A stretch of DNA of 64,000 nucleotides from an uncultured Ruminiclostridium sp. Its GTDB lineage: Bacteria > Bacillota > Clostridia > Oscillospirales > Ruminococcaceae. Location of the stretch: positions 1 to 64,000 of the forward strand of contig CANRFO010000001.1 in assembly GCA_947629925.1 (NCBI GenBank), given 5' to 3'. The notes under the pieces were generated by a model. The model searched no databases. It was not told the DNA's origin and worked only from the letters and a program-made list of their open reading frames with translations. The position numbers and the translations under genes are program-made. This document shows positions 1,116 through 52,020 of the stretch, one piece after another (the first letter of the stretch is position 1; each line of letters starts with the position of its first letter).

Positions 1116-1381
1116 GGAAATCCCAGACCCCTTTAAAATCAAAAATCTTAATTTTACTGTCAGGACTGCATTGAAATTTGAACAGCCTAACAATATAAAA
1201 ACTGATTTATGACAGCCGATAAGATATAAAGAAAAACTTCATCATCAGTGTCAATAACCTAACTGATAAGTTATAACACATATATTTTTACATAAAGTCA
1301 GCGTGTCATGAAACAAAGGTATTGGATTTTTTGTCAATGAATTTTAAAATACTGCGTTGGTTGAAAAGCGCATAAGTTAAC

Positions 1382-1422
1382 TGCCCCGCCACAGGAAATT
1401 TGTGTTTTCCTATGGCGGGGCA
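1382..1422 (-). terminator. Terminator of the cohesin/dockerin surface operon
   Basis: A GC-rich inverted repeat (TGCCCCGCCA...TGGCGGGGCA with A/T extensions) sits 35 bp past the stop codon of the cohesin-like gene. The leftward T-tract is weak (TTAACTTATG), but the stem is long and well placed to end the operon. Confidence 0.75.
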
Positions 1423-1457
1423 GCTGCATATCCACAATATTTATACAGAATTAAGTT

Positions 1458-2807
1458 TTATTTGCGCTTCTTTATGCTAAGAGCCACAGCAGTTCCGGAG
1501 ATTGCAATAAGAACCGCAATAGCGCCTGTTGCGGGGTAATTTGCTGTGGGAACATTGGAATCTTCGCTGTCAGCCGCATTATCACTGCTTGCGGCAGTCT
1601 GTTCTTCGCTTACCGAAGGAGCGGCAGTTTCACTGCTTGCAGTATCTTGGGTACCATTATCAGGCTGTGCAGTAGCTTCGCTGCTTGCTTCAGGGGTTGA
1701 ATCAAGTGCGTCTGAAGTTTCATTAGAGGAAGTTGTGGTTTCTTCAGGTACATAGAAGTAATAATGATTCCCTGTGCTGCCCGTAGGAGAAGTCGTACGG
1801 GTTTCCGTTTCGCCGCATACTTCGCATTCGCGTATTTGCTGTCCTAATGTGCCCTCAACATCTTTCCAATCGCCCCATGTATGACCGGCAGCCTTTATCG
1901 TTTCGGTCACTTCTTCTGCACATACAGTGCAAGTACCTTTACGCTCGCCGTCCTCGGTGCAGGAAGCTTCTTTGGAGGTTTCCCATTCAGTTACATTGTG
2001 ACCTTTAGCAGGTTCGGTCTCTTCGGTAATGGTTTCTCCGCATACTGAACATTCACCTGTTTTCGTGCCGGGAGCCGTGCAGGTAGCAGGTGTTTCGTCC
2101 CAAGAAGAAACCTTGTGACCAAGCGCTTTGGTGGTTTTTGTTTCTGTTTTGCCGCAGACTGTGCATTCTCTTGTCTGTTCGCCGCCTTTGGTACAGGTCG
2201 CGGTGTCCGCAGACCAATCGCTCCATGTATGACTATCGTCGTCACAAGGCAGTAAAAGCTTGGTTTTGGCGGTGTCTACATAGATGTCATCACTATCGTA
2301 CAAAGAAGCAGTCAACAAAGGATCGCTTTCGTCTATGCGCACGATCTGGAACTTGCTTATAGTGACAAGATCCTTATAATTGCCAAAATCGGCGTTATCA
2401 TTGACAACAAATTTAATTGTCGCCAGTTTTCCTGTAACAGTAAAGTTTTTTGTTGCCAGAGGCTCTGACCATCTGAGACCGATAGGACTTGAGGGAACAA
2501 CACCGGGCTGAAGTCCTGTGAAGCCTGTAAGTAATTTTTCGTCTGTTACATTACTTGTTGCGGGAACGGACAAAACATCTTCGTCAAACGCTACGCTGAG
2601 ATTTGCAACGATAAGTCCTGCGTTTTTGTCCATAGATATAGTTGCGGTGACTGTATCACCTCTTGACGCCGTTTCCTTGTCAAAGGAAATGGTGAACGCT
2701 ACTTTGGCGTCACTGGCGCTTTCAGCAGCATTGACGACAGCGGAAGTACACAGTGTCCCGCTCAGCGCTACTGCTGCCGTCAACAGATAAGAAATAACTT
2801 TCTTCAT
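1458..2807 (-). CDS. Cohesin-like, wall-anchored surface protein with CxxC repeats
   Basis: The 449-residue precursor has a signal peptide (1-28). A cohesin-like beta-sandwich follows at about 35-185, with GDTVTATI, FDEDVLSV and GKLATIKFVVND matching the usual cohesin strand pattern. Four modules at about 190-340 each carry CxxC (215-218, 253-256, 293-296, 328-331) and an HTW.DW/GH start. Then come a Ser/Thr/Glu linker and a sorting-type tail: YPATG at 424-428, a hydrophobic helix and KKRK. It is the last gene of an operon whose other secreted products end in dockerins, so its likely job is to hold them on the wall. The cohesin call comes from motif reading and genomic pairing and is not proven. 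No sortase lies in the window. The start has an AAAGGAG site. Confidence 0.72.
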   Translation of the reverse strand: MKKVISYLLTAAVALSGTLCTSAVVNAAESASDAKVAFTISFDKETASRGDTVTATISMDKNAGLIVANLSVAFDEDVLSVPATSNVTDEKLLTGFTGLQPGVVPSSPIGLRWSEPLATKNFTVTGKLATIKFVVNDNADFGNYKDLVTISKFQIVRIDESDPLLTASLYDSDDIYVDTAKTKLLLPCDDDSHTWSDWSADTATCTKGGEQTRECTVCGKTETKTTKALGHKVSSWDETPATCTAPGTKTGECSVCGETITEETEPAKGHNVTEWETSKEASCTEDGERKGTCTVCAEEVTETIKAAGHTWGDWKDVEGTLGQQIRECEVCGETETRTTSPTGSTGNHYYFYVPEETTTSSNETSDALDSTPEASSEATAQPDNGTQDTASSETAAPSVSEEQTAASSDNAADSEDSNVPTANYPATGAIAVLIAISGTAVALSIKKRK

Positions 2808-2869
2808 CTTTTTAACTCCTTTTTTTCTTTTTTTATATTAGTCCCTTTCGGGAGTAATACCATTGATTT

Positions 2870-5815
2870 TTATACATTCCACCCTGCGAGTTTTCTTGCC
2901 AGCATAACGCTGTCCAGCTCGTCTATATCGCCGTTTCCGTCAACATCTGCGGCAGATTGGTCTATCGCAACGTTCCAGCTCGCAAGGTAACGCGCAAGAG
3001 CTACGCTGTCAAGCTCGTCCACTTCGCCGCTGCCGTCGACGTCACCCGGAGTGGTAGCGACAAGCTTTGTTGTTGAAAGCAGGTATTCGCTGAAGTGGTT
3101 TGTGGTGAAGATAATGTAATTTCCCGAAACAACCGCATGCATATCTGTCAGATTGCCGTTGGCGTCCTTATAGTAAGCATATATCTGTTTGCCGCTCCAG
3201 CCGTCAGGAACAGGGATACGAACAGTAACGTTGTCATTAGGCTGTATCTCTTTTCCGTTTTGGGTGAGAGTTATGTTGTAGGAAACAGATGTGTCTGTCT
3301 TATCCGTCTGTTCAACGTTTAGCTTTGTATCATCGGGGATAACGCCATTGTCGGCGGTCACGGAAACACCAATGTCACTGTTAAGGAAAATTCCGAAAGA
3401 AACGAAAGGTATATTTGCTCCCTTGGCATAGCTCTCAGCAGATGTACTTGTGTAGCCGTAAATGGTGAGATCGGGGCAGCCAAACCATTCGTTATTTGAA
3501 AAAGCGTAGTCGGATATAGTTTTCACATATGGAGAGATCACGGCTTTTTTAAGATTATGGCAGCTAAAAAATGCACGCGATTCTATGGATTGAACGTTGT
3601 CGGGAATTTCTATCTCAGGCAAATTGCTATTAAAAAATGTCGCATACTCTATGGTCGTTATACTTTTAGGCAGTTTTACCTTTTCAAGTGAGTAACAGTA
3701 AATAAAAGCCTCCTCTTTTATTTCCGTAACACTATCAGGAATGATTATTTCTGTCAATGATGTGCAGGCTCTAAATGCCCCTTTCCCTATTGTTGTCAAA
3801 CCGTCGGGAAGATTTATGCCCGTCAGCGAAGTGCCGCCAAACGCACCGTCACCTATTGTCGTCAGACCATCGGGAAGATTTATGCTCGTCAGCGAAGTGT
3901 CACTAAACGCATAGTCACCTATTATCGTCACACTGTCAGGAATAGTTATTTCAGTCAGCGAGTAGCAACCTTGAAACATACCCTCAGGTATTGCTGTCAA
4001 ATTTTTCGGTAAATCTACTTTTGTTAGTAATTGGCACCAACCGAATACGTTTTTCCCTATTTCTGTCACGCTGTCCGGAATGGTTACCTCGGTAAGCGAG
4101 GAGCAGCCATAAAATGCCTGTTCCCCGATTGCTGTAACCTTTTTTCCACGGATCTCAGAGGGAACGGTCACTTCGGCGTCTTTGCCGTTATACTTTATGA
4201 TGGAAAGAGTTCCGTCATCCAACTCCTCATACATAAAATTTTTATATGCGCCAATTCTTTTATTAAATCCGCTTACCGTAAAGGTCACTTCAACCCTTTC
4301 GCCAAAATCGTACCGGTTTATGCCCGGGTGTAAAGCTTCCCAACTATTGCATAATACTACGGCATAAACCTCCATCCCGTATTCTGTGTTGTAATCTTCG
4401 GGAAGATAACCGTAAACATCGGAATACTCGTCAACATATAGATGACGAGTAGTTAATTCGGCATCTTTCCCACTTTCTATTTCCTTGCCGTCTATTTTCA
4501 CACTATCTATCACTATATTTAGATCGGGCTGAATGTAAGGCTCAATGTTTGTTTGCAGCGTAAGCATATACCATGTTTCTTCAGTAGAGCCGTCTTTGAA
4601 AGGTATCAAATCCTTTTCAAAAGAAACCGTGTAGGTGCCGTTGTCTGTTATTTCAACATCATTTACCGACCAATTAGGGCACACTGACACTGTTGATTCG
4701 TCAATGTACAAATATGCATCGCTCTGATTTATGTTATTACGGAATGAACCGGCTGTCTCGAAAGTAAGACCTGCGAAAACACTGCCCTGAGGAACGCTCT
4801 TTGCCGGTGAAACAATGTATGTTCCCGAATTGTCAACGGTGAATACGGTAAACATAGTGCCATTAAAATCTAACTTCGTATTGGTTATCTCGTTTCCGTC
4901 CGCGTTCTCAATATGAGCTTGCATATTTTTTCCCCAGCTGCTTAATGGAATATATATTTCTGTCGCTCCGCCAAAGGGGTATTGCTTGCCGTCAACGGTA
5001 ATATAAATGTTGTAATATGTTAAGTAATTCTCACCGCTTGAGATCTCCACATTCAGATCCGCTCCCTCGGGAAGGGTCCAATCCACTGCAGAAATCATAA
5101 TATCTGTCGGCTCATTTGTGAGAGTGAGGTCAGGGTCAATAAAGGCAATGCTGTTTTCCTTTGCGTAGGTCTCAGCATAGGAACCTCTCTGACCGTATAT
5201 CTGAACTCCGGGCTCAATTGCGCCTTCACCTATTGTAGTAACACCTGCGGGAATGGTTATTTTTTTCAACGACGAGCATTTGGAAAATGTATAGTCACCT
5301 ATTGTTTTCACACTGTCAGGAATAGTTATTTCCGTCAGCATTTCACACTTATAAAATGCATATTTTCCTATTGTTGTTAAGCTGTTGGAAAAAGTTATTT
5401 CTGTCAATAAACTGCAATGTTCAAATGCATTTTCCCCTATTGTCGTCACACTGTCAGGAATTGTCAACTCTGTAAATTCACTGCTAGTGAACGCACTATT
5501 TCCTATCGTTGTCACGCTGTCGGGAATGGTTACTTTTGTAATAAAATGTCCTGCGAACGCTCTATATCCGATTACAGTCACCCTTTTACCGTAAATTCTA
5601 GATGGAATGACCACTTCGTCGTCTTTACCATCATACTTATTAATAATCAGCGTTCCGTCCTCTAATTCCGAATACCAAAAGTCCTGATACTTTCCCCCAT
5701 CTCCCGCCGCAAGAATTTCTTCATGCGTCAGGGGCTCCGCTATCGCCGCCTGAGTCAGGCAGGCAACTGTCATTGCGGCAGCAAGAAAAGCTGCCAAAAG
5801 TTTCTTTTGTTTCAT
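2870..5815 (-). CDS. Secreted BspA-like leucine-rich-repeat protein with C-terminal dockerin (981 aa)
   Basis: A signal peptide (about 1-26) leads into a first block of BspA/LRR_5 repeats (about 60-225; consensus A F..C..L TEITIPDSVTTIG). A non-repeat beta-rich region follows (235-520), then a second LRR block (540-780), a beta domain (about 800-905) also found in the two sister proteins, and a type I dockerin (924-981) with two calcium loops, DVDGSGEVDELD and DVDGNGDIDELD. LRR_5 proteins commonly bind host or matrix ligands; the dockerin should dock to a cohesin, plausibly that of the gene 62 bp downstream. Its signal-peptide and dockerin DNA almost match the copy at 7536-9899, suggesting duplication or gene conversion. 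The start has GGAGG. Confidence 0.9.
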   Translation of the reverse strand: MKQKKLLAAFLAAAMTVACLTQAAIAEPLTHEEILAAGDGGKYQDFWYSELEDGTLIINKYDGKDDEVVIPSRIYGKRVTVIGYRAFAGHFITKVTIPDSVTTIGNSAFTSSEFTELTIPDSVTTIGENAFEHCSLLTEITFSNSLTTIGKYAFYKCEMLTEITIPDSVKTIGDYTFSKCSSLKKITIPAGVTTIGEGAIEPGVQIYGQRGSYAETYAKENSIAFIDPDLTLTNEPTDIMISAVDWTLPEGADLNVEISSGENYLTYYNIYITVDGKQYPFGGATEIYIPLSSWGKNMQAHIENADGNEITNTKLDFNGTMFTVFTVDNSGTYIVSPAKSVPQGSVFAGLTFETAGSFRNNINQSDAYLYIDESTVSVCPNWSVNDVEITDNGTYTVSFEKDLIPFKDGSTEETWYMLTLQTNIEPYIQPDLNIVIDSVKIDGKEIESGKDAELTTRHLYVDEYSDVYGYLPEDYNTEYGMEVYAVVLCNSWEALHPGINRYDFGERVEVTFTVSGFNKRIGAYKNFMYEELDDGTLSIIKYNGKDAEVTVPSEIRGKKVTAIGEQAFYGCSSLTEVTIPDSVTEIGKNVFGWCQLLTKVDLPKNLTAIPEGMFQGCYSLTEITIPDSVTIIGDYAFSDTSLTSINLPDGLTTIGDGAFGGTSLTGINLPDGLTTIGKGAFRACTSLTEIIIPDSVTEIKEEAFIYCYSLEKVKLPKSITTIEYATFFNSNLPEIEIPDNVQSIESRAFFSCHNLKKAVISPYVKTISDYAFSNNEWFGCPDLTIYGYTSTSAESYAKGANIPFVSFGIFLNSDIGVSVTADNGVIPDDTKLNVEQTDKTDTSVSYNITLTQNGKEIQPNDNVTVRIPVPDGWSGKQIYAYYKDANGNLTDMHAVVSGNYIIFTTNHFSEYLLSTTKLVATTPGDVDGSGEVDELDSVALARYLASWNVAIDQSAADVDGNGDIDELDSVMLARKLAGWNV

Positions 5816-5863
5816 GTTTTTTTCCTCCGTTATTTTTTCAGGCTTCCGCCTGTTGTTGACTTT

Positions 5864-7513
5864 TTATTCTATCGTAAACTGCGGCTTGTCGTTTATCATA
5901 AACGCCAGCGGGGAAGTTGTATCTTTCAGATCCGCAAGCATTCTTTTCGCTTCTTCGATACAGTATAAGCAATACTGCGCGCTTGCGTCGTCGCCGCCGT
6001 TTTCATATAATCCCGCCGCTGTTTCCAGCATATAGCAGTAATCCTTGTATTCTTCAACGGTATATTTTGAAAGCTCTATCGCTTTCTTTTTGTATTCTGT
6101 CATTTTTAAAACATCGCCGCGGGAAAATTCCGCCCTTGCCTTAGCGCTGTAAGCTATGGAAACGTCGCTGTTCAAAGACAAAATCTTGTCTGCAAGCTCC
6201 TCCGCTTCATATATATTATCGGATTCGCTTATCTGCTGAATGTATGCCATGGTGTACATCGGATACATTTGCGCCGACAGGTCGGCGCGCCCTGTGTAGT
6301 ACAGCATATTTGCAGCGCCAAGATATATCGACAGCCCCGCAGATATGACCGACGCGGTCAGCGGAGCGGAATTGTTTTTGATCTCAATGTATTTGTCATT
6401 GTTACATTCCGCCGCAATGATCAGTATAAGATCCACAGCCAAAAACTGTAAGTCAAAATCAAGCATACTGTGAAGCACGAGCAGAATTATAACGTATCTG
6501 CAAACGGCAGAGCTTTTTCTTATTGCCGAAACGAAAGCCGCCGCACAGATCGCCGCAGGTATCCAGCCAATGTCCAGCAGTATCTGCAAAAAATCGTTAT
6601 GTATGTTCATCACGGAGTAAACGCCGTTTTGAAACGAGCCTTGAGCAAAATAATATCCCATATATCCCAGACCCATCGGGTGCGTCAGTATAACAGGAGC
6701 CGCGTCAAAATAATAAAGCAGTCGCCCTATAAGGGTACTTGAGGTAAAGGATGAGGTAAGGTATCTTCCCACGGTTTCAAGATTCCCCGTTATAAGAGCA
6801 TAGGCGGCTGTTCCTGCGGCGAGAACGCCCACGGCGCCTGCAAGGAAAATCTTTTGCTTTTTGTTCTTTGAAGCTATGATATACACTGCCGCAGAGACCA
6901 TCATAAACAAAAACACCGTTCTGCTTCCTGAGGCAAAAATGCCGATAATTAAAATCCCGCAGATAATTCCCGTACGCAGGTCAAATTTTTTATTATATAA
7001 TTGTATAAATACGCCTGCGAGCAAAAAGATCGCAAAGGTGTTCGGATATTGGAAGAAGCCGCCCAGACGTCCGTTTACCAACAAATATGTCCTTAAAACA
7101 GGTACAAGGCACAGCACCGCTGACAGGACCGTCATCACCGCTCCGCTCAAAGGCACTGTATCAAGAACGCTTTGTTTATGTTCGGGGGAAAGCTGAGCTG
7201 CGGCAACGGAAAAAAGCGGAAGAGGCAGAAATTTTATAAATCCCATCAGCGCCATTCCTTTATCGACCGCCCATAACGGAGAAACTGCAAAAAAGGCGGT
7301 CACAAAAACACAGGCGAGCATTGTCAAGGTTTTTGGGACAAGTATTTTTCCTGTACGGATCTTGCAGCAGCACAGGTAACAAAGGAGGAAAACTGATACC
7401 AATGCGGCAGTCCATTCATAATACAGACCTATCACATAAGGCGATATAAAAACGATGAGCGCTATTGGAAAATGCTGCGGATAAAATTCCTGCCTCGCTT
7501 TTTTCTCTTTCAT
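5864..7513 (-). CDS. O-antigen ligase / Wzy-type membrane polymerase with C-terminal helical repeats
   Basis: The 549-residue protein has about a dozen membrane segments followed by a soluble helical tail (about 430-549) resembling TPR repeats. WaaL/Wzy/PglL family signatures are visible: GRLGGFFQYPNTFA, then SRTVFLF, then a large outer loop with HPMGLGYMGYYF and NIHNDFLQILLDIGW. The family transfers or polymerises lipid-linked glycans outside the membrane. It lies between two dockerin-LRR genes in the same operon (22 and 48 bp gaps), so it may glycosylate these surface proteins or make a co-regulated polysaccharide. That role is inference. No glycan-assembly genes accompany it. GAGGTC precedes the ATG. 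Confidence 0.8.
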   Translation of the reverse strand: MKEKKARQEFYPQHFPIALIVFISPYVIGLYYEWTAALVSVFLLCYLCCCKIRTGKILVPKTLTMLACVFVTAFFAVSPLWAVDKGMALMGFIKFLPLPLFSVAAAQLSPEHKQSVLDTVPLSGAVMTVLSAVLCLVPVLRTYLLVNGRLGGFFQYPNTFAIFLLAGVFIQLYNKKFDLRTGIICGILIIGIFASGSRTVFLFMMVSAAVYIIASKNKKQKIFLAGAVGVLAAGTAAYALITGNLETVGRYLTSSFTSSTLIGRLLYYFDAAPVILTHPMGLGYMGYYFAQGSFQNGVYSVMNIHNDFLQILLDIGWIPAAICAAAFVSAIRKSSAVCRYVIILLVLHSMLDFDLQFLAVDLILIIAAECNNDKYIEIKNNSAPLTASVISAGLSIYLGAANMLYYTGRADLSAQMYPMYTMAYIQQISESDNIYEAEELADKILSLNSDVSIAYSAKARAEFSRGDVLKMTEYKKKAIELSKYTVEEYKDYCYMLETAAGLYENGGDDASAQYCLYCIEEAKRMLADLKDTTSPLAFMINDKPQFTIE

Positions 7514-7535
7514 TATGACCTCATATTATCCGATA

Positions 7536-9899
7536 TCACACATTCCATCCCGCAAGTTTTCTTGCCAGCATAACGCTGTCAAGCTCGTCTATATCGCCGT
7601 TTCCGTCAACATCTGCGGCAGACTGGTCTATCGCAACGTTCCAGCTTGCAAGGTAACGCGCAAGAGCCACGCTGTCAAGCTCATCTACTTCGCCGCTGCC
7701 GTCGACGTCGCATGGAGTGGTAGCGACAAGCTTTGTTGTTGAAAGCAGGTATTCGCTGAAGTGGTTTGTGGTGAAAATTATGTAACCGCCTGAAACAGCA
7801 GCTTTTATTTCAGTGAGCTTGCCGTTTGCGTCACGGTGGTAAACGTATATGTTTTCAGTATCCCAGCCTTCGGGGACAGGGATACGGACGATGACCTCGC
7901 CCTCAGGCTGTATCTCTTTTCCGTTCTTTGTGAGGGTTATGCTGTAAGTCAAAGAGGTTTCCGTCTTTTCGGTTTGTTCAGCGTTGAGCTGTGAGCCCGT
8001 GTGAACGCTGTTCTCGCCTGCGGTCATCTCTATCCCTGTTTTCGAGTCGGTAAACTCATTCAGAGAAGAGAAAGGTATACGGTTATTGTCAGCATACGTC
8101 TGTGCAGAAGAGCCTGTATGACCGTAAATGGTGAGGTCAGGCGAACCCCATGACGAAAAAGCACGATAAGCAATATTTGTTACACCTGCAGGAATGTATA
8201 CTGATTTTAAATTTGGACAGAATTCAAAAACTGCATCAGGTATTTTGGTTATTCCCTCAGACAATATCACTGATGTGATAGAATCGCAGAATGCAAATAC
8301 GCCTGTCCCTATTTCCGTAACGCTGTCGGAAATAAATACCGTCTTTAAGGCACTGCCCATAAACGCATCGCCTTGTATGGAGACGGTGCTGTCGGGGACC
8401 GCGTAGGAGTCGCCGCTTTTTCCTGCGGGATAAGCAACTAACACAGAGCTGTCTTTTGTAAACAGAATGCCGTAGTCAGATTTGAAGAAATTGTTGTTTT
8501 CTTCCACCTTAATATCTGTCAGGGAAGAACATCTGCCGAATACGCCTGTTGATATGGCAGCCGTGTTTTTGGGAATGGTCACCGCTTCCAATCCGCTGTT
8601 CCAGAAAGCGCTGGGACCTATGGAAGTCAATGTTTCGGGAAGTTCAACGGAAGTTAAGCTGCTGCAGTTTCCGAATGTCCTGTATTGTATCGTTGTCAGG
8701 CTTGCAGGAAAATCTATCTTATTTAATTTGCCGCAGTTGGCAAATACATCGTCATTGAGCGTTGCCAGAGCAGAGGGCAATTTCACCGACTGCAGCTCGG
8801 AGCAGCCATTGAACGCTCCTTCTCCTATTTCCTCTACGCTTTCGGGAAATTGCAGTCGAGTAAGCTTTTCGCAGGACGCAAATGCGTTGGCTCCTATCTT
8901 CTTCAGGCTGTCAGGGAAAGTTATTTCCGAAAGAAAATCGCACCAGTAAAACGCGCCATCTTCTATTGTAGTCACGCCGTTGGGTACAGCATATGAATCG
9001 ATATCCTTGCCGCAAGGGTACAGTATCAGGGTAGTTATGTTTTTGTTAAACAAAATTCCGTCTGTCGAGCTGAAATTTTTATTGTTTGCCTTTACGTTTA
9101 TCGAGGTCAAATTGGTGCATCTCACAAATGCTTCCTTGCCAATCTCCTCAACATTGTCGGATATCGTTATTTCCGCCAGGGAAGTGCAGCGGTAAAATGC
9201 CCTTTCCCCTATTACCGTCACGCTGTTGGGAATATTTATCTCTGTCAGTTTATAGCAGCCGAAAAACGCATAGTCCCCTATTATCGTCACGCTGTCGGGA
9301 AGATTTATCTCTGTCAGTGATGAGCAATCAGAGAACGCTCTTTCTCCTATTTCCGTCACGTTTTTTGGGAGTTTGACGGACGCCAGCTTATAGCAGCTTC
9401 TAAACGTTCCGTTCTCTATTACTGTCAAGCCTGCGGGAAGTGTTATTTCCGTCAGGGAATAGCAGTAATAAAACGCATTGCTGCCCATAGTCGTCAAGCT
9501 GTCGGGAAGAGTTACTTTCGCCAAAGAGTTGCAACTAGAGAACGCTCCGTCGTCTATCTTGGTCACGCTGTTGGGAAGAGTTATCTCCGTTAGCGAGGAG
9601 CAGTAATAAAACGCCCTATCCCCTATCTCCGTCACCGCTTGCCCGTTTATTTGAGAAGGAATAGTAACTTTGGTCTCTGTGCCTTCATACCCCGTTATAG
9701 ACAGCGTTCCATCCTCCAACTCCTCATACTCAAAATCTCCGTCTGTGAATCTGTCTCCCGCCGACAAAGGCTCCGCTTCCTGCGGCACGCCTTCCGTCAG
9801 TGTTTCCTGCGTCAGGGGTTCTGCAATCGCCGCCTGAGTCAGGCAGGCAACTGTCATTGCGGCAGCAAGAAAAGCTGCCAAAAGTTTCTTTTGTTTCAT
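7536..9899 (-). CDS. Secreted BspA-like leucine-rich-repeat protein with C-terminal dockerin (787 aa)
   Basis: It shares the signal peptide of the 981-residue paralogue. The first 30 residues are identical, and the DNA is identical from 9826 to the start codon. A nearly continuous LRR_5 array (about 75-600) is broken by two degenerate inserts with SINVKANNKNF and DIKVEENNNFF. After it come the shared beta domain (about 630-715) and a dockerin (730-787); the usual Gly before the first calcium loop is Cys here (PCDVDGSG). The secreted product should dock to a cohesin. It is the second gene of the operon, 55 bp after the 720-residue paralogue, with GGAGG before the ATG. Confidence 0.9.
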   Translation of the reverse strand: MKQKKLLAAFLAAAMTVACLTQAAIAEPLTQETLTEGVPQEAEPLSAGDRFTDGDFEYEELEDGTLSITGYEGTETKVTIPSQINGQAVTEIGDRAFYYCSSLTEITLPNSVTKIDDGAFSSCNSLAKVTLPDSLTTMGSNAFYYCYSLTEITLPAGLTVIENGTFRSCYKLASVKLPKNVTEIGERAFSDCSSLTEINLPDSVTIIGDYAFFGCYKLTEINIPNSVTVIGERAFYRCTSLAEITISDNVEEIGKEAFVRCTNLTSINVKANNKNFSSTDGILFNKNITTLILYPCGKDIDSYAVPNGVTTIEDGAFYWCDFLSEITFPDSLKKIGANAFASCEKLTRLQFPESVEEIGEGAFNGCSELQSVKLPSALATLNDDVFANCGKLNKIDFPASLTTIQYRTFGNCSSLTSVELPETLTSIGPSAFWNSGLEAVTIPKNTAAISTGVFGRCSSLTDIKVEENNNFFKSDYGILFTKDSSVLVAYPAGKSGDSYAVPDSTVSIQGDAFMGSALKTVFISDSVTEIGTGVFAFCDSITSVILSEGITKIPDAVFEFCPNLKSVYIPAGVTNIAYRAFSSWGSPDLTIYGHTGSSAQTYADNNRIPFSSLNEFTDSKTGIEMTAGENSVHTGSQLNAEQTEKTETSLTYSITLTKNGKEIQPEGEVIVRIPVPEGWDTENIYVYHRDANGKLTEIKAAVSGGYIIFTTNHFSEYLLSTTKLVATTPCDVDGSGEVDELDSVALARYLASWNVAIDQSAADVDGNGDIDELDSVMLARKLAGWNV

Positions 9900-9954
9900 G
9901 ATTCTTCTTCCTCCTAAAAATTTGTTTTATCAATAAAATCAATGCGCTAAATTA

Positions 9955-12117
9955 TCATACATTCCACCCTGCGAGTTTTCTTGCCAGCATAACGCTGTCA
10001 AGCTCGTCTATATCGCCGTTTCCGTCAACATCTGCGGCAGACTGATCTATCGCAACGTTCCAGCTTGCAAGGTAACGTGCAAGAGCTACGCTGTCAAGCT
10101 CGTCTACTTCGCCGTTGCCGTCGACGTCGCCGAGCTTGATTGTCGTCTGCTTCTCGGTGGTGAGAACATATTCGCTGAAGTGGTTTGTGGTGAAAATTAT
10201 GTAGCCGCCTGAAACAGCAGCTTTTATTTCAGTGAGCCTGCCGTTTGCGTCACGGTGATAAACATAGATGTTTTCAGTATCCCAGCCTTCGGGAACGGGG
10301 ATACGGACGGTAACATTCCCTTCGGGTTGGATCTCTTCTCCGTTGCAGGTGAGGGTTATATTATAGGAAACAGATGTTTCAGTCTTCTCCGTCTGTTTAA
10401 CATAAAGCTTTGTATCATCGGGGATAACGTTTGTGTCAGCGGTGACCGATACATCACTTTCACTGTTCAGGAAAAGGCCGATAGAAACGAAAGGTATTTT
10501 ATATTCGTTTGCATAAGTTTCGGCATAAGAGTTGGTGTAACCGTAGATGGTGAGGTCGGGGCAACCGAAAAAGGCATTATATCCTATTTTCGTGACGCTT
10601 GTGGGAATGGTTATTTTCGTCAGTGAGGAGCAGTCTTCAAATACACAAGAATCAATTGTTGTCAAGCTGTCAGGAAGATTTATTTCCGTAAGCGAGGTAC
10701 ATTCACAAAATGCAGAACCTCCTATTATTATCAAACCTTCGGAAAAATTTATTGTTGTCAGCGATTTACATCCATAAAACGCATGGCTCCATATTGATAC
10801 CGAGCTTTTGGGAATAGTTATTTCCTTTAGTAAAGAGCATCCTTCAAACGCACCGTTCTTTATTGATATCACGCTGTCGGGAATTTCATATGAAGTAACA
10901 TCTTTACCGCAAGGGAATTGTATAAGTTCAGTTACATCTTTGTTAAACCAAACTCCATCTATTGAGCAGAAATTTTTGTTGTTTTCGTCCACGTTTATTT
11001 CCGTCAGCGAGGAGCAATTGGAGAATATACTTCCAAATACTAATGTTGTCACGCTGTCAGGAATGGTTATTTCCGTCAGTGAGGAGCATCCGTAAAATGC
11101 GCTGTCCCATATTGTTGTCAAACTGTCGGGAAGAATTATTTGCGACAACGAGGAGCATTCTTCAAACGCTCCTGCCCCTATTGATGTCAGGCTGTCGGGA
11201 AGATTTATTTCCGTAAGCGAAGTGCAGTATGCAAATGTCGAGTCCCCTATTGCTGTCACACCGTTAGGTATGGTTATTTCCGTCAGCGAGGAGCAGCCCC
11301 CAAACGCCTCTTTCTTTATTGTTGTCACACTTTTGGGAATGGTTATTTTTGTCAGTGATTCGCATTTGACAAATGCCTCTTCCCCTATTGTCGTCAAGCC
11401 GTCGGGAAGATTTATTTCCGTCAGCGAGGAGCAGCTCCCAAACGCCTCGTTCTCTATTATTGTCACGCTGTCGGGGAGATGTATTACTGTTAGCAATTCA
11501 CAGCGGTCAAACGCCTCGTCATCTATAGTTGTCACGCCGTCGGGGATCATATATGAAGTAATGGCTTTGCTGCAAGGGAAACGTATCAGAGTAGTTGCGT
11601 CCTTGTTAAACAAAACACCATCTATCGAGCAGAAATTTTTATTGTTTTCGTCCACGTTTATTTCCGTCAACGAGGAGCAGCCTTGTAAAGCAAATATCCC
11701 TATTGACGTAATGTTGTCAGAAAAATTTATTTCTGTTAGTGATGAACAGGCAGCAAACGCATAAGCCTCTATTGTTGTTAAGCTGTCAGGAATAGTTATT
11801 TTTTCAAGCTGATAATTCCAGCGGAACGCACTGTCGCCTATCACCGTCACCTTTTTCCCGTTAATTTCAGAGGGAACGACCACTTCAATGTCACCGCCGT
11901 TATATTTCGTGATAGCCAGCGTTCCGTCCTCTAATTCCTTATAGCGGAAGCCTTCGTACAAGTTTGAATCACCTTCACCGACTACGACCGACGCAGGCTG
12001 AAGACCTTCCGACTGCAAGAAATCATCGCTTTCTGCAAGTGCTGTTTGAGGCAAAGCTGTCACCGCCATTGCTGCCGCGATAAAAGCTGCTGTTAATTTT
12101 TTGAATGTTTTCTTCAT
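9955..12117 (-). CDS. Secreted BspA-like leucine-rich-repeat protein with C-terminal dockerin (720 aa), first gene of operon
   Basis: The reading frame is open upstream to 12174, but the true start is the ATG at 12117. It is preceded by GGAGGAGT and begins a normal signal peptide (MKKTFKKLTAAFIAAAM). The mature part is an LRR_5 array (about 60-540), the shared beta domain (about 560-645) and a dockerin (663-720) with the same two calcium loops as its paralogues. Two 'EINVDENNKNFCSIDG' inserts interrupt the array. Only 55 bp separate the start from the left inverted repeat of the invertible segment, and no convincing promoter lies there. Transcription should therefore depend on the segment's orientation or on read-through from the recombinase gene. 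Confidence 0.9.
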   Translation of the reverse strand: MKKTFKKLTAAFIAAAMAVTALPQTALAESDDFLQSEGLQPASVVVGEGDSNLYEGFRYKELEDGTLAITKYNGGDIEVVVPSEINGKKVTVIGDSAFRWNYQLEKITIPDSLTTIEAYAFAACSSLTEINFSDNITSIGIFALQGCSSLTEINVDENNKNFCSIDGVLFNKDATTLIRFPCSKAITSYMIPDGVTTIDDEAFDRCELLTVIHLPDSVTIIENEAFGSCSSLTEINLPDGLTTIGEEAFVKCESLTKITIPKSVTTIKKEAFGGCSSLTEITIPNGVTAIGDSTFAYCTSLTEINLPDSLTSIGAGAFEECSSLSQIILPDSLTTIWDSAFYGCSSLTEITIPDSVTTLVFGSIFSNCSSLTEINVDENNKNFCSIDGVWFNKDVTELIQFPCGKDVTSYEIPDSVISIKNGAFEGCSLLKEITIPKSSVSIWSHAFYGCKSLTTINFSEGLIIIGGSAFCECTSLTEINLPDSLTTIDSCVFEDCSSLTKITIPTSVTKIGYNAFFGCPDLTIYGYTNSYAETYANEYKIPFVSIGLFLNSESDVSVTADTNVIPDDTKLYVKQTEKTETSVSYNITLTCNGEEIQPEGNVTVRIPVPEGWDTENIYVYHRDANGRLTEIKAAVSGGYIIFTTNHFSEYVLTTEKQTTIKLGDVDGNGEVDELDSVALARYLASWNVAIDQSAADVDGNGDIDELDSVMLARKLAGWNV

Positions 12118-12172
12118 AAGATACTCCTCCGTATAATTTTGAAATTTAAGGAAATAATGGTCCTGCCAAAGC

Positions 12173-12198
12173 ATTTTCGCTTATTGTATCCATAAACG
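12173..12198 (+). repeat. Left inverted repeat of the switch
   Basis: This 26-bp arm contains the perfect 19-bp core CTTATTGTATCCATAAACG (12180-12198). The extension ATTTTC on the operon side also matches the right arm, leaving one mismatch over 26 bp. Confidence 0.9.
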
Positions 12199-12228
12199 AA
12201 GCGGCGCCGTTTTAAGCGCCGCTTTTTT
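12199..12228 (+). terminator. Hairpin with T6 just inside the left repeat
   Basis: AGCGGCGC pairs with GCGCCGCT and is followed by TTTTTT on the plus strand. Leftward, after the recombinase gene, the same hairpin is followed only by TTCGTTTATGG. It should stop rightward transcripts efficiently but may let some recombinase transcripts leak into the LRR operon. Confidence 0.8.
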
Positions 12229-12241
12229 CAGATATTTACGG

Positions 12242-13204
12242 TCACAGGCTGCTTGCAGGGCGCAGGAGCGCCATATTCCGCCGCTTTTGCTCGATGGACG
12301 AGTGAACGTACCTGTTCAGCGTGGTTTTAACATCCCTGTGTCCCAGAATTTCCGACAAGGATTTTATGTCAAATCCCGCTTCGACGCATCTTGTGGCAAA
12401 TGTGTGCCGCAGGGCGTGAAAGTTCGTTTTCGGCAAGCCGCATTTTGCAATATACTTTTCAAATTTGTACTGCATAACGCGCGGCTCAACAGGCTTTCCG
12501 CCCTTTGTCTTCATCAGCGGTCCGCTGCTCCTGAATTTTTCCGTCAGAGGAACAAGGAACTCGGGCAGCGGGATCGTGCGGTAGGAACTTTTCGTTTTGG
12601 GTGAGGTTACCTCTAAGATCGTCCCCTCGTCATCCTTTATCCTGTGAAAAGTCTTGGAGACTATAAGCTCACCGTTTTTCAGATCATCCCAGCTCAGGGC
12701 GCAAAGCTCGCCCAACCTTATCCCCGTGTAAAGTGCTAGCAAAACGCCGAATTTGTAAATGTCCATGTCAGTGAGGAGGAAAGCCTCAAGCTTCTTCTGC
12801 TCAGCAACTGACAGCACGCGCATTTCCTTCTCCGCTTCCCTCACATAGTGGAATCTGATCTTCGGTATCCCGTATGTTTCCTCCGCGTAGGACAGCGCTG
12901 AGCTTATCATCACAAGGATATCGTTTACGCTTTTCCCGCATAGGGAAGAAAGCAGCTCTGACGCAAAGGAATTTATATCTTTTCCCGCGAGGGAGCGGAC
13001 GGGGATGTCCCCTACGGTAGAAAACAGGATATGATTGCGTATCAGACATTCATATTTGCGGTAAGTGGAATTTTTCACCGTAAGGGAGACCGAATACAGC
13101 CATTCCCACATAAGCTTCGACAGCGTGACGGTGGAAAGCGGCGGCTCGTCCTCCGCCTGTGAAACGCCCTGTAAATTGTAAATTACTGCGTTTTTTTCAG
13201 ACAT
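12242..13204 (-). CDS. Tyrosine recombinase (integrase family), probable invertase
   Basis: The 320-residue protein has an N-terminal SAM-like DNA-binding part (about 25-110) and a C-terminal catalytic domain. The expected residues are present: R163 (TGIRLGELCALSW), K203/K205, H263 and R266 (HALRHTFATR), H289 (GHRDVKTT) and nucleophile Y299. The fold matches phage integrases and XerC/D relatives. It lies entirely inside the inverted repeats and no other phage or conjugation gene is near, which fits a dedicated DNA invertase better than a prophage integrase. GAGGTGAT precedes the ATG. A TATAAT box lies 27 bp upstream. In the present orientation it is transcribed towards the LRR operon. Confidence 0.93.
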   Translation of the reverse strand: MSEKNAVIYNLQGVSQAEDEPPLSTVTLSKLMWEWLYSVSLTVKNSTYRKYECLIRNHILFSTVGDIPVRSLAGKDINSFASELLSSLCGKSVNDILVMISSALSYAEETYGIPKIRFHYVREAEKEMRVLSVAEQKKLEAFLLTDMDIYKFGVLLALYTGIRLGELCALSWDDLKNGELIVSKTFHRIKDDEGTILEVTSPKTKSSYRTIPLPEFLVPLTEKFRSSGPLMKTKGGKPVEPRVMQYKFEKYIAKCGLPKTNFHALRHTFATRCVEAGFDIKSLSEILGHRDVKTTLNRYVHSSIEQKRRNMALLRPASSL

Positions 13205-13230
13205 AACAGATCACCTCTCGTTTTTTCTTA

Positions 13231-13236
13231 ATTATA
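13231..13236 (-). promoter_or_regulatory. Likely -10 box of the recombinase gene
   Basis: A TATAAT on the minus strand lies 27 bp before the start codon. The expected -35 position (CGTTTT) is poor, suggesting low expression. Confidence 0.4.
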
Positions 13237-13281
13237 CAATAAATCCGCGCCGCAAAACGTCTCGGGTGAAATAAATTTATA

Positions 13282-13310
13282 TTGACAAATCCCGCTGATT
13301 GTGATAAAAT
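13282..13310 (+). promoter_or_regulatory. Strong outward promoter of the invertible segment
   Basis: TTGACA (13282-13287), a 17-bp spacer and TAAAAT (13305-13310) form a near-consensus housekeeping promoter reading right, across the right repeat. As drawn it serves no gene: its RNA would meet the terminator at 13363-13422 after about 100 nt. Inversion would aim it at the LRR/dockerin operon. Confidence 0.85.
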
Positions 13311-13336
13311 TATGAAAAAGATTGTCATTTACCAAA

Positions 13337-13362
13337 CGTTTATGGATACAATAAGAGAAAAT
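13337..13362 (-). repeat. Right inverted repeat of the switch
   Basis: This is the reverse complement of the left arm: perfect over 19 bp (13337-13355) and 25 of 26 overall. The mismatch is at the seventh base from the outer end. Confidence 0.9.
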
Positions 13363-13422
13363 AAAATCAGCCGCCGACAGGAAAAACGATGTTTTTCCGT
13401 ATCGACGGCTGTTTGATTTTTT
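13363..13422. terminator. Strong bidirectional terminator outside the right repeat
   Basis: AAAATCAGCCG.CGA and GGAAAAA pair with TTTTTCC and TCGACGGCTG.TTTGATTTT around a GATG loop, with T-rich tails on both sides. It would stop the outward promoter's RNA in the present orientation and also shield the segment from the leftward lipoprotein gene at 13710-14807. Confidence 0.85.
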
Positions 13423-13709
13423 GGGAGATTTAACTGACGGAGATATTCTTAAGCCTGTTGCTGGTGCTATAAGATAGTTTGTTTTTCTTTATTATGTCAC
13501 AAGAACAAACATTCGCGCGCCAACTAACTTCGGCAAAGAATAAATAATATTTCACAAATCACAACAAAAATTCCACAGATACTATCGGGCCAAATACCCT
13601 TTTATAGACCTCTGATCGCCCTTGAACGAGGCATATGTTCTTCGCAACAACGCCAAGAATTTTTAACCCCTGATACTTAATAATTCCGTTTTGAAGCCTG
13701 CGGAAAGTT

Positions 13710-14807
13710 TTAATCCACAGGGATCAGATTATCAAGCGCAGTCTCATAATCAAAGCCGACAGCCTGACGTACAGAATCGCCTGTGTAGCTGCCTATCGTA
13801 TCATCATCGGTGACAACAGAAAATGAACCATCATCATTTTTCATCAGCCACACGCTCCATACGCTGTAATATTTATTTCCTACGGTATATTCTCCGCCGA
13901 ACTTTTCCATATTGTTATCGTTCAGGTAATCGTCTGCCAGTTTTTCCAGCTCCGCTTTTTCCTCTTCCTTTATTTCAGCAGGCGCTGGTGTTACATAGCA
14001 TTGTTCGTCGTTATTCCAGAAAAGAAGATAATTGCAAAACAGCATAGGATAGGTTTGACTAAAAGCAAAGTTGTCTTTAATTTCACCTAACTGAAACTGA
14101 CTTATTTCACATTCAGGCTGATTGTCATTGAAACTGAAGAACTTATTTACCGATGAGTCTGTGCTGACGCCGCCTGAAAGAATAAGATGACTGAATCCGC
14201 TATATTGCAATTCATACAATTTGCTGTCACAAGCATATATTTCGTCATCAACAGTAAATTTTTTATTTTTGTCCGCGAAAATCAGAACATCCTTAAAATC
14301 GCCCGATATAAGATCATTTTCAAAAATCATAACGTACTCTGTCTGACCGTCTTGGTCAAAGTCCTTTATTAAAGCTTGGGTCAATTCAGGAGCTGCATTG
14401 AGGGAATCACTGTTATTGTAATTACCGTATTCATTTTCGCTCAACTTTTCCTGAGCTGCCTGCCTTGCCTGCTCAAGCAGCTCTTTATCTTCAAAATCAT
14501 CTTCCGAGCTTATCACATCATCAGTCGACAAGCGCATTTCATAGTATTTTGTGTCTGCGGTAAGCTGAATCGCTTCTGTCTCAGCGTTTTCTTCTTCTGA
14601 AGCAGAGGTTTCCACAGTATTTTCTTCGGTTTGCGAAGCAGTCGAGGCTTCCGTTGTTGATTCGGAAGCGGTCGTTTCCTGACGGGTCTGTTCAGTTGAG
14701 GAAACGGCAGTTGTTTCCTCCTCAGAATTGTTTTCTCCTGAGCATGCTGTAAACAGAATCGCCGCGGATAAAATAATGGTGAGGAGCTTTAAATATTTGT
14801 TTGTCAT
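13710..14807 (-). CDS. Lipoprotein of unknown function, Thr/Ser/Glu-rich linker
   Basis: The 365-residue precursor has a lipobox (LFTAC, Cys22) and would be anchored to the outer face of the membrane. Residues 25-85 are a low-complexity Thr/Ser/Glu linker. The remaining globular part includes an acidic FDQDGQTEYVMIFENDL segment, reminiscent of FG-GAP/VCBS-like calcium loops, but no family is secure. It is monocistronic, with its own TTGATT-17-TATAAT promoter (14836-14864) and a terminator region before the switch. The acidic loop style recurs in the lipoprotein at 55681-57006. Confidence 0.85.
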   Translation of the reverse strand: MTNKYLKLLTIILSAAILFTACSGENNSEEETTAVSSTEQTRQETTASESTTEASTASQTEENTVETSASEEENAETEAIQLTADTKYYEMRLSTDDVISSEDDFEDKELLEQARQAAQEKLSENEYGNYNNSDSLNAAPELTQALIKDFDQDGQTEYVMIFENDLISGDFKDVLIFADKNKKFTVDDEIYACDSKLYELQYSGFSHLILSGGVSTDSSVNKFFSFNDNQPECEISQFQLGEIKDNFAFSQTYPMLFCNYLLFWNNDEQCYVTPAPAEIKEEEKAELEKLADDYLNDNNMEKFGGEYTVGNKYYSVWSVWLMKNDDGSFSVVTDDDTIGSYTGDSVRQAVGFDYETALDNLIPVD

Positions 14808-14835
14808 ATTTCCCTCCGATGTTTTATTTTAAATA

Positions 14836-14864
14836 ATTATACCAGTAAATACCATGAAAATCAA
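14836..14864 (-). promoter_or_regulatory. Promoter of the lipoprotein gene
   Basis: On the minus strand TTGATT, a 17-bp spacer and TATAAT precede the start codon by about 30 bp. Confidence 0.75.
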
Positions 14865-15021
14865 GGCGATATAAATTTTCATGTCATATTTATTATAATT
14901 TTCGGGATTTATAGTTGATGGAAAAGCTGTTTCTGAACCATCTTGCGTTGCCATCGCCCAGAACAACCTTTGTTTTTAAGAAAGATCATCAATTTAAATA
15001 TCCATCCAAAAGCCATTTTTT

Positions 15022-20420: not shown

Positions 20421-20471
20421 AAAAATACGCTCTCAGTTTTCTGAGAGCGAATCGAAGCCGCTCAGCAGCTG
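20421..20471 (-). repeat. tRNA-trailer repeat, extra copy
   Basis: This closely matches the tRNA-Pro trailer at 20599-20648: the TACGCTCTCAG hairpin, then CGAAGCCGCTCAG. It lies beyond the trailer with no tRNA attached, so it looks like a stranded duplicate. It may also end the sugar operon. Confidence 0.65.
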
Positions 20472-20507
20472 TAATATCGTTACCAAAAAGATATTTGGGT
20501 GGCGAGC

Positions 20508-20571
20508 AAAAAAATAACGCTCCCGTGGTATGGGAGCGTATCGGGTGCAGCGTCACGCTGCTGTGATATCG
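20508..20571 (-). repeat. Diverged tRNA-trailer-like repeat
   Basis: An ACGCTCCC hairpin followed by the palindrome GCAGCGTCACGCTGC has the same layout as the two neighbouring copies. Like the 20421 copy, it is followed by a GTRATATCGT motif, indicating a common origin for the pair. Confidence 0.5.
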
Positions 20572-20598
20572 TGGCTAAACATTTTTTAAACCGCAGAT

Positions 20599-20648
20599 AA
20601 AAAATACGCTCTCAGTTTTCTGAGAGCGTATTGAAGCCGCTCAGCGGC
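20599..20648 (-). terminator. Trailer and terminator of tRNA-Pro
   Basis: Leftward from the CCA end come GCCGCTGAGCGGC, TTCAAT, the hairpin ACGCTCTCAG/CTGAGAGCGT and a T-run. The same arrangement follows tRNA-Leu at 51871. Confidence 0.85.
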
Positions 20649-20725
20649 TGGTCGGAGTGACCGGACTTGAACCGACGACCTCTACCACCCCAAGGTAGCG
20701 CGCTACCAATCTGCGCCACACCCCG
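20649..20725 (-). tRNA. tRNA-Pro (anticodon GGG)
   Basis: The 77-nt cloverleaf has acceptor CGGGGTG/CACTCCG (one G-U pair), D-arm TGGCGCAGATTGGTAGCGC, anticodon stem CTACC/GGTAG with loop TTGGGGT, T-arm GGTTCAAGTCC, and an encoded CCA. The anticodon GGG reads CCC and CCU. The 5' leader carries a short GCCGACA/TGTCGGC hairpin. Confidence 0.95.
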
Positions 20726-51783: not shown

Positions 51784-51870
51784 GCCGGTGTGATGGAATT
51801 GGCAGACGTGCCGGACTCAAAATCCGGTGGTAGCGATACCGTGCGGGTTCGACCCCCGCCACCGGCACCA
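51784..51870 (+). tRNA. tRNA-Leu (anticodon CAA)
   Basis: The 87-nt gene has acceptor GCCGGTG/CACCGGC, a Leu-type long variable arm, anticodon stem CCGGA/TCCGG with loop CTCAAAA, T-arm GGTTCGACCC and an encoded CCA. The anticodon CAA reads UUG. Confidence 0.95.
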
Positions 51871-51920
51871 GCGGCTGAGCCGCTTCAATGCGCTCCCATA
51901 ACAAGGGGGCGTATTTTTAT
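51871..51920 (+). terminator. Trailer and terminator of tRNA-Leu
   Basis: Immediately after CCA come GCGGCTGAGCCGC, TTCAAT, the hairpin GCGCTCCC/GGGGGCGT and a T-run, the same order as in the tRNA-Pro trailer. Confidence 0.85.
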
Positions 51921-51959
51921 GTTCTGCTGCTTTAAAATCTATTTGGTCACAACATCACA

Positions 51960-52020
51960 GTGGCTGAGCCGCTTCAATGCGCTCCTCTAACACGGGGGAG
52001 TATTGAAGCGGCTCAGCCGC
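51960..52020. repeat. tRNA-trailer repeat with complete inverted arms
   Basis: GGCTGAGCCGCTTCAAT (51962-51978) and its exact reverse complement (52002-52018) enclose a GCTCCTC/GGGGGAG hairpin. It copies the tRNA-Leu trailer and adds a second arm, making it look like a mobile or duplicated palindromic unit. It may also end the XRE gene. Confidence 0.7.

Follow-up and report, generated by a model that had tools for sequence, protein, structure and literature searches.

A recombinase-containing, putatively invertible promoter segment ahead of a cohesin/dockerin surface operon in an uncultured Ruminiclostridium species

How might an operon of dockable surface proteins be expressed when the DNA directly ahead of it is a recombinase gene enclosed by inverted repeats? 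This question arises in the window, by which we mean the whole 64,000-nucleotide stretch analyzed here, positions 1 to 64,000 of contig CANRFO010000001.1 in assembly GCA_947629925.1 of an uncultured Ruminiclostridium sp., a genus that may equal the [Eubacterium] siraeum group in GTDB usage. The operon consists of the following features.

1458–2807, minus strand: gene 5, protein with one cohesin and a sortase-type signal at the C terminus (domain scan; signal by eye)
2870–5815, minus strand: gene 4, LRR-dockerin protein (domain scan)
5864–7513, minus strand: gene 3, O-antigen-ligase-like membrane protein, Wzy_C (domain scan)
7536–9899, minus strand: gene 2, LRR-dockerin protein (domain scan)
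9955–12117, minus strand: gene 1, BspA-type LRR protein with a C-terminal type I dockerin (domain scan)
12118–12172, minus strand: leader with the ribosome-binding site GGAGGAG (promoter scan, sequence reading)

The five genes are spaced by 22–62 nt, and all their reading frames are open. The first ATG in the frame of gene 1 is at 12174; we replaced it by the codon at 12117, which is preceded by GGAGGAG and is most likely the start. The sortase-type signal of gene 5, a motif recognized by eye, goes with a cohesin protein that is presumed to be the wall anchor. Its cohesin is borderline, with 19.9 bits in one scan and 24.6 in another against a cut-off of 24.1. The homologue in the related genome G036 (44% identical over 312 aligned positions) has a cohesin score of 45.2, and the homologue in G067 scores 25.0 bits, above the cut-off. 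The dockerin domains of the window's own genome are above the profile cut-off, and cohesin matches number one per anchor gene. Most dockerin carriers scanned are BspA-type LRR, ricin-type lectin or RCC1-repeat proteins, and no glycoside hydrolase family was found among the operon proteins scanned individually. The locus thus has the cohesin (that of gene 5 borderline) and dockerin domains of a cellulosome and shows no multi-cohesin scaffoldin with polysaccharide-degrading enzymes. Since no glycoside hydrolase was found among these proteins and the cohesin is single, the term "cellulosome-like" used in the preliminary description is apt for the docking domains only.

Upstream of the leader lies a segment with the following features.

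12173–12198, plus strand: left inverted-repeat arm and recombination site (repeat comparison)
12198–12231, unstranded: hairpin within the segment where the recombinase gene ends, stem GCGGCGC/GCGCCGC (folding energy)
12242–13204, minus strand: tyrosine recombinase, 320 aa (Pfam Phage_integrase PF00589, 1.1e-23)
13282–13310, plus strand: outward promoter TTGACA-17-TAAAAT, −35 at 13282–13287 and −10 at 13305–13310 (consensus match 11/12)
13337–13362, minus strand: right inverted-repeat arm (repeat comparison)
13368–13422, unstranded: terminator outside the right repeat (hairpin folding energy and T-run)

The arms are 26 nt each, 25/26 complementary, and separated by a gap of 1138 nt. In the left arm, whose site borders we infer, the half-sites CGCTTAT and ATAAACG surround the 7-nt spacer TGTATCC (12185–12191), and the identical spacer is found in the right arm at 13344–13350. 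Among the 25 listed of 32 inverted pairs in the window, no other combines complementarity above 90% with an arm distance above 100 nt. The inverted-repeat search that was applied to the whole recombinase family gives this pair a score of 23; in this search, shuffled flanks, preserving base composition, reached at least 17 in 0 of 1780 cases, and ordinary ORFs of the fetched loci (n = 101) reached at least 15 once and at least 17 never. The 25/26 repeats that the preliminary description had placed around a 1,190-bp segment were re-found as the same arms and passed both controls, and such near-perfect repeats around a segment are a mark of invertons. Two other repeat pairs of the window lie at tRNA genes: near-palindromic inverted repeats (29 nt, 83%) at 20424–20632 beside tRNA-Pro (20649–20725), and 45-nt inverted repeats (76%) at 51871–52020 immediately past tRNA-Leu (51784–51870).

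R163, K203, H263, R266, H289, and Y299, which we take to be the catalytic residues, are invariant across five aligned recombinase sequences; with the Pfam match, this bears out the earlier description of an intact R-K-H-R-H-Y tyrosine recombinase. The nearest solved structures are those of the Tn1549 integrase (6en0, 6emy, and 6emz, E about 1e-17). In the alignment to Tn1549 Int, R163, K203, H263, R266, and H289 fall in matching blocks, and the Y/F difference between the Tn1549 chains aligns one residue ahead of Y299, so the catalytic tyrosine is assigned by motif rather than by that alignment. Both recombinases of the window's own genome (12242–13204 and L005:8753–9715) are without an N-terminal stretch present in G067 and G036, and this stretch may be dispensable for inversion. 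The recombinase of a third relative, G065, has an N-terminal stretch unlike the others. No transfer genes were found among the recombinase and the six neighboring proteins scanned. Since the recombinase lies within the segment, the locus departs from the RecV type, in which the enzyme is encoded away from its segments.

The outward promoter, which departs from TATAAT in its −10 box, is the top-scoring of 36 promoter-like sites in the 13.6 kb of 1300–14900, a region that yields a mean of 22.9 (sd 4.7) such sites when shuffled; these calls are consensus matches, not transcription evidence. On the minus strand, the consensus scan found no site of at least 9/12 from the left repeat to the gene 1 start at 12117. 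Both earlier statements, a near-consensus promoter facing out at the far edge and no evident promoter in the DNA that separates gene 1 from the left repeat, agree with these scans. Judged by consensus match, the segment therefore has the layout of an inverton: an inside promoter faces out of one end, and the target at the opposite end is without an evident promoter of its own.

The terminator beyond the right repeat is absent from the preliminary description. Its hairpin (13368–13411; −22.1 kcal/mol on the plus strand and −29.4 on the minus strand) is followed by TTTGATTTTTT on the plus strand and lies 58 nt from the outward promoter. Because the promoter is now aimed at this terminator, the assembled orientation reads as OFF, and the segment would have been captured in its OFF state. 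After in-silico inversion, the promoter would map to about 12225–12253 on the minus strand, which fits the earlier claim that a flip puts it about 100 nt before the operon (predicted RNA start about 12218, ATG at 12117). The hairpin at 12198–12231 (−18 to −20 kcal/mol) has a T-run on the plus side and a weaker U-run on the minus side. Since the recombinase is co-directional with the operon and the hairpin between them has this weak U-run on their strand, the OFF state may be leaky through recombinase transcription. The short distance from promoter to strong hairpin would also suit a present-state promoter that makes an RNA of about 100 nt, ending at the outside terminator and having its own function. 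However, most of the transcribed stretch would be recombination site, and the corresponding hairpins of three related species differ in sequence, which makes this explanation barely credible.

We consider it very probable that the segment is a self-contained invertible promoter with the dockerin/cohesin operon as its target. In this mechanism, the recombinase would act at two TTCG(C)TTAT-N7-ATAA(A)CGAA sites and flip the 1.19-kb segment. In the OFF state, the promoter would fire rightward into the outside terminator, leaving the five-gene operon without an evident promoter directly ahead; in the ON state, transcription from the inverted promoter would begin at about 12218, some 100 nt ahead of the first start codon. 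A separate weak promoter within the segment presumably drives the recombinase, which could thus act in either state. A TATAAT box is seen by eye at 13231–13236, where the scan gives no 9/12 site. Cells would then differ in the display of cohesin-docked surface proteins.

A second cassette in the same genome (2.37 Mb, 44 contigs, 99.75% complete) bears on this mechanism. Allowing up to 3 mismatches, the repeat core has two matches elsewhere in the genome, which form an inverted pair of equal spacing on contig C11, bounding a cassette near 64683–65872; the reversed core, used as a pattern control, gives 1 match at the same tolerance. The C11 recombinase is 98% identical to that of the window, the cassette is alike in geometry and orientation, and it heads another dockerin operon, with LRR-dockerin, ricin-type-lectin-dockerin, and LRR-dockerin proteins as cargo and its own cohesin gene, 95% identical to the window's, at the end. 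The cohesin tails of the two operons (window 1241–3330 and C11:54879–56978) are 93% identical, and the genes between differ. These dockerin operons look as if cargo had been swapped between a common head and tail.

The duplicated DNA spans 12059–13447 at 95% identity and covers the leader, the start codon of gene 1, and the outside terminator. Its extent bears on a reading in which the recombinase moves the 1.19-kb unit as a minimal mobile element, with the repeats as its transposon or integration ends. A Tn1549 integrase as the nearest solved structure would be consistent with that reading, as would the loci L049 and L050, which lie near relaxase- or large-serine-recombinase-like genes (by eye). 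Yet the duplication overruns both repeats, so the unit was not cut at them, and an outward promoter with a nearby target recurs from locus to locus; a mobile element is therefore quite unlikely.

The C11 spacer is TGTATTC in both arms, as against TGTATCC in the window cassette. This concerted change would be the mark expected of sites that repeatedly exchange strands. Two 95%-identical cassettes in one genome could also mean that exchange between the cassettes, with the large rearrangements it entails, is the main activity of the enzyme and local inversion a secondary one. We regard this as very improbable, since the spacers agree within each cassette but differ between them. Private spacers are not a general rule of insulation; the paralogues L108, L112, and L113 of genome G064 have identical sites. 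Between the two recombinase genes, 26 of 321 codons differ synonymously and 7 nonsynonymously, so function was apparently kept.

The self-contained invertible promoter has counterparts in three related species, G067, G065, and G036, which are metagenome-assembled genomes labelled Ruminiclostridium (twice) and Eubacterium. Their recombinases are 74%, 64%, and 65% identical to the window's over the aligned part, respectively, and 61–71% identical over the five-sequence alignment. Perfect repeats of 22, 22, and 18 nt flank them, TTGACA promoters lie at the far edge (11/12, 11/12, and 12/12), and a hairpin lies beyond the far repeat in each. Each of the three has a co-directional operon that encodes dockerin proteins, mostly with LRR, lectin, or RCC1 repeats, and has a cohesin gene as its last member; in the G067 operon, genes 1 and 2 are without dockerin.

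The five dockerin loci (two in the window's genome and one in each relative) are all in the same OFF orientation, and in every known relative of this group the recombinase reads toward the operon. The opposite orientation was found neither in the 71 genomes of the genus, nor in 396 family genomes (recombinase E 1e-60 or better), nor in a scan of named genomes from which the records nearest the window's own were possibly left out; these searches gave the known relatives alone. The uniform orientation would be expected of a locked relic, a segment that once inverted and is now fixed OFF, with the operon silent or dependent on leaky recombinase transcription. The missing N-terminal stretch of the recombinase and its co-directional arrangement with the operon, with a weak terminator between, also fit this explanation. 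Against it stand the excess of synonymous over nonsynonymous codon differences, the concerted change in both arms of the second copy, the open frames of the operon, and the outward promoter itself, which is useless to the operon while OFF and yet is kept at 5/5 loci. We therefore consider a locked relic unlikely.

How much of the docking system would such switches control? Counting domains at E 0.001 or better (own-genome cohesins at E 0.01), 6 of 7 dockerins and both cohesins of the window's genome sit in the two switch-headed operons. In the relatives, the dockerins in such operons are 3/3 in G065, 4/4 in G036, and 1/2 in G067, and the single cohesin of each is there too, so that the four genomes together have 14/16 dockerins and 5/5 cohesins behind switches. 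Near the seventh own dockerin gene (contig C3) and the second of G067 (contig C6), no near-perfect, widely spaced repeat pair was found. A cohesin match occurs in 28 of 71 genomes of the genus, and a recombinase more than 60% identical over most of its length occurs, among the matches listed, in only 4. Since cohesins also occur in genomes of the genus without a close recombinase relative, the cohesin-switch link belongs to this lineage and not to cohesins generally.

The recombinase belongs to a wider family, for which 60 fetched stretches (from the upper hit lists, not every listed hit) and 31 loci gave a set of 91 loci. Flanking inverted repeats score at least 15 at 82 of the 106 recombinase hits in this set and at least 17 at 76, and are absent at 24, many of them tandem second recombinases. 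Outside the count of 106 stand L077–L079, L086, and L090 (same places as included loci), L100 and L101 (26–30% identity), the lower-scoring L010–L015 and L033–L044, and short versions of re-fetched loci. The 12 genus loci L033–L044 showed no such repeats, and viral contigs yielded one distant recombinase homologue, also without repeats. After L095 (a long inverted duplication) and L099 and L140 (weak repeats) were dropped, 79 elements of 1140–1496 bp including arms remained, some of them near-copies of one another and hence not 79 independent cases. An outward promoter divergent from the recombinase reaches at least 10/12 in 68 of them (11 are without one at this level) and at least 9/12 in 77, with 22 perfect; the other side, which is mostly shorter, has one in 2 and 10, respectively (shuffles for these elements preserved base composition only).

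The centered sites of the 79 elements have a consensus of about TTCGCAAA-N7-TTTGCGAA. Arm mismatches are zero at offsets −2 to +1 of the site, do not exceed 4 at any offset between −7 and +5, and number 7–59 from +6 and from −8 outward, counted with half-integer positions rounded and in arms preselected for similarity, which favors agreement somewhere. In a midpoint-rooted tree of 114 sequences, 79 of them labelled repeat-flanked (L095 kept; L158 removed by the stop or length filter), all 79 fall within one group of 97 alongside 18 unflanked sequences; of these 18, 11 make up a clade of their own, with tandem second recombinases among them. The other 17 unflanked sequences lie outside this group. 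Deep support is modest (0.41; next node 0.89).

Inversion is seen most directly in this wider family. L103 and L104 are paralogous loci of genome G068 whose segments are 85% identical and in opposite orientations; the left flank of L103 and the right flank of L104 align at 93% identity for 965 bp, from at most 2 nt off the repeat edge, and in-silico inversion of L103 turns two opposite-strand matches into a single match of 2207 bp at 88.7%. L120 and L134, from two genomes, carry homologous targets (86% and 51% identical proteins) on opposite sides, the first being TadZ-like in both. L153 and L159 are a weaker case, with 46% identical targets on opposite sides, about 2 kb off the edge in L153. 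The recombinases of these cases are about 39–43% identical to that of the window. The search of related genomes for the opposite orientation, proposed in the preliminary description, thus found it among more distant family members and not in the dockerin group. Under a rough rule that counts as target a gene of at least 100 aa starting within 350 nt of the segment edge, the target is confined to the OFF side in 52 of the 79 elements and to the ON side in 9; another 9 have targets on both sides, and the last 9 have none. OFF looks commoner than ON in assemblies. The earlier reading of an invertible promoter before the dockerin/cohesin operon is strengthened by the concerted spacer change, the three further species, and these distant inversions, and we infer that the segment inverts and the operon is expressed in ON and OFF states in the window's own species.

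The first genes beside the segment (n = 70) include 14 Phage_integrase, 7 LytTR, 6 LRR_5, and 3 Dockerin_1 matches (among the 25 listed of 76 families). Dockerin operons are thus one target among many, and no dockerins were found in the large surface proteins of L125, L127, L147, and L129. On contig C4 of the window's genome (L049:4649–7564), a repeat-flanked recombinase cassette lies directly upstream of a LytTR-type response regulator, followed by a GHKL kinase and an AgrB-like gene (below its cut-off); this is possibly a phase-variable agr-like signalling operon. The neighbors of L049 look like relaxase and coupling-protein genes, and L117, L144, and L075 have a similar cassette before a LytTR-type regulator (both by eye). 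In L104, L105, L108, L112, L113, L116, L118, and L080, the switch has a second tyrosine recombinase gene as its immediate neighbor, with sugar-nucleotide or sialic-acid-type genes next in several (by eye). L080 (63%) had been a candidate for another dockerin switch and was set aside, since it heads the second recombinase and glycan genes (by eye). At such loci, a possible cascade would have one inversion activate a further recombinase. In L120 and L134, the TadZ-like gene is of a pilus-assembly type.

Taking these loci together, we lean toward a broader view in which a portable flip cassette (recombinase, divergent promoter, and two sites, with an outside terminator alongside) heads surface operons in many genera of the host family and in Lachnospiraceae-labelled records. 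Here, it would control essentially the whole cohesin-dockerin system and make display of the docked layer a cell-by-cell bet; elsewhere, it would drive second recombinases (cascades), agr-like signalling operons, and pilus genes. The positions of the 5/5 cohesins suggest that they stand behind invertible promoters; if they do, the docked surface layer would be phase-variable, with a bearing on adhesion, phage receptors, and host recognition. Together, the recombinase clade and the consensus sites provide a sequence handle with which recombinase-containing switches of about 1.1–1.5 kb can be listed from assemblies, and the mostly-OFF orientation bias of such switches could be examined in the same way.

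The usual view of cohesin-dockerin systems is that they are docking machines, either constitutive or regulated by substrate. Like cellulosomes, the window system combines type I dockerins with a cohesin, here on a protein with a sortase-type signal; unlike them, it has a single cohesin and putative control by inversion, and the cargo in the operons scanned is LRR, lectin, or RCC1 proteins. Tn916/Tn1549-type integrases move conjugative transposons, whereas the window recombinase lies between closely spaced inverted sites. Hin, a serine recombinase, lies within the segment it inverts and flips a promoter; the window recombinase is likewise inside its segment but is of the tyrosine type, nearest Tn1549 Int. 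RecV of C. difficile is a tyrosine recombinase and a nearer enzyme parallel than Mpi of Bacteroides. It is encoded elsewhere and serves several switches, whereas the window recombinase lies within its own segment.

In the accessible text of PMC5903667, which also names Hin-type inversion, Mpi is called a serine recombinase, so the preliminary description's parallel to Mpi as an integrase-family enzyme does not hold for the window recombinase. The RecV switches (cwpV, flagellar, and cmrRST) likewise invert for ON/OFF expression of surface genes, according to the accessible parts of PMC2784873, PMC5386303, PMC7446863, and PMC8844915, and the flagellar switch works through Rho (PMC7446863). Invertible promoters with tyrosine recombinases are known in gut bacteria, Clostridia included, from the accessible portions of PMC11892184 and PMC5903667. 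Among titles and abstract starts, with most subscription journals outside the coverage, none described a switch that controls a cohesin-dockerin system; nor did titles and abstract starts report a tyrosine-recombinase family sharing the enzyme-inside-segment layout. A PhaseFinder size limit that would hide segments this long was not found in the texts. The mechanism is thus of a known kind, and the target and the shared enzyme-inside layout are the parts without a report found. The closest likeness is to the invertible promoters ("invertons") of gut bacteria in the accessible text of PMC11892184, citing Jiang et al. 2019, which also have inverted repeats around a promoter and surface genes adjacent. 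There, inverton group 139 with invertase group 35 is a Clostridia group with tyrosine recombinases nearby, and two of its invertons have about 206 and 228 bp between the repeats with the invertase nearby. The window segment instead holds its recombinase inside 1.19 kb (1.14–1.50 kb in the 79 family elements), and its target, as compared with the invertons described in that text, is a cohesin/dockerin operon.
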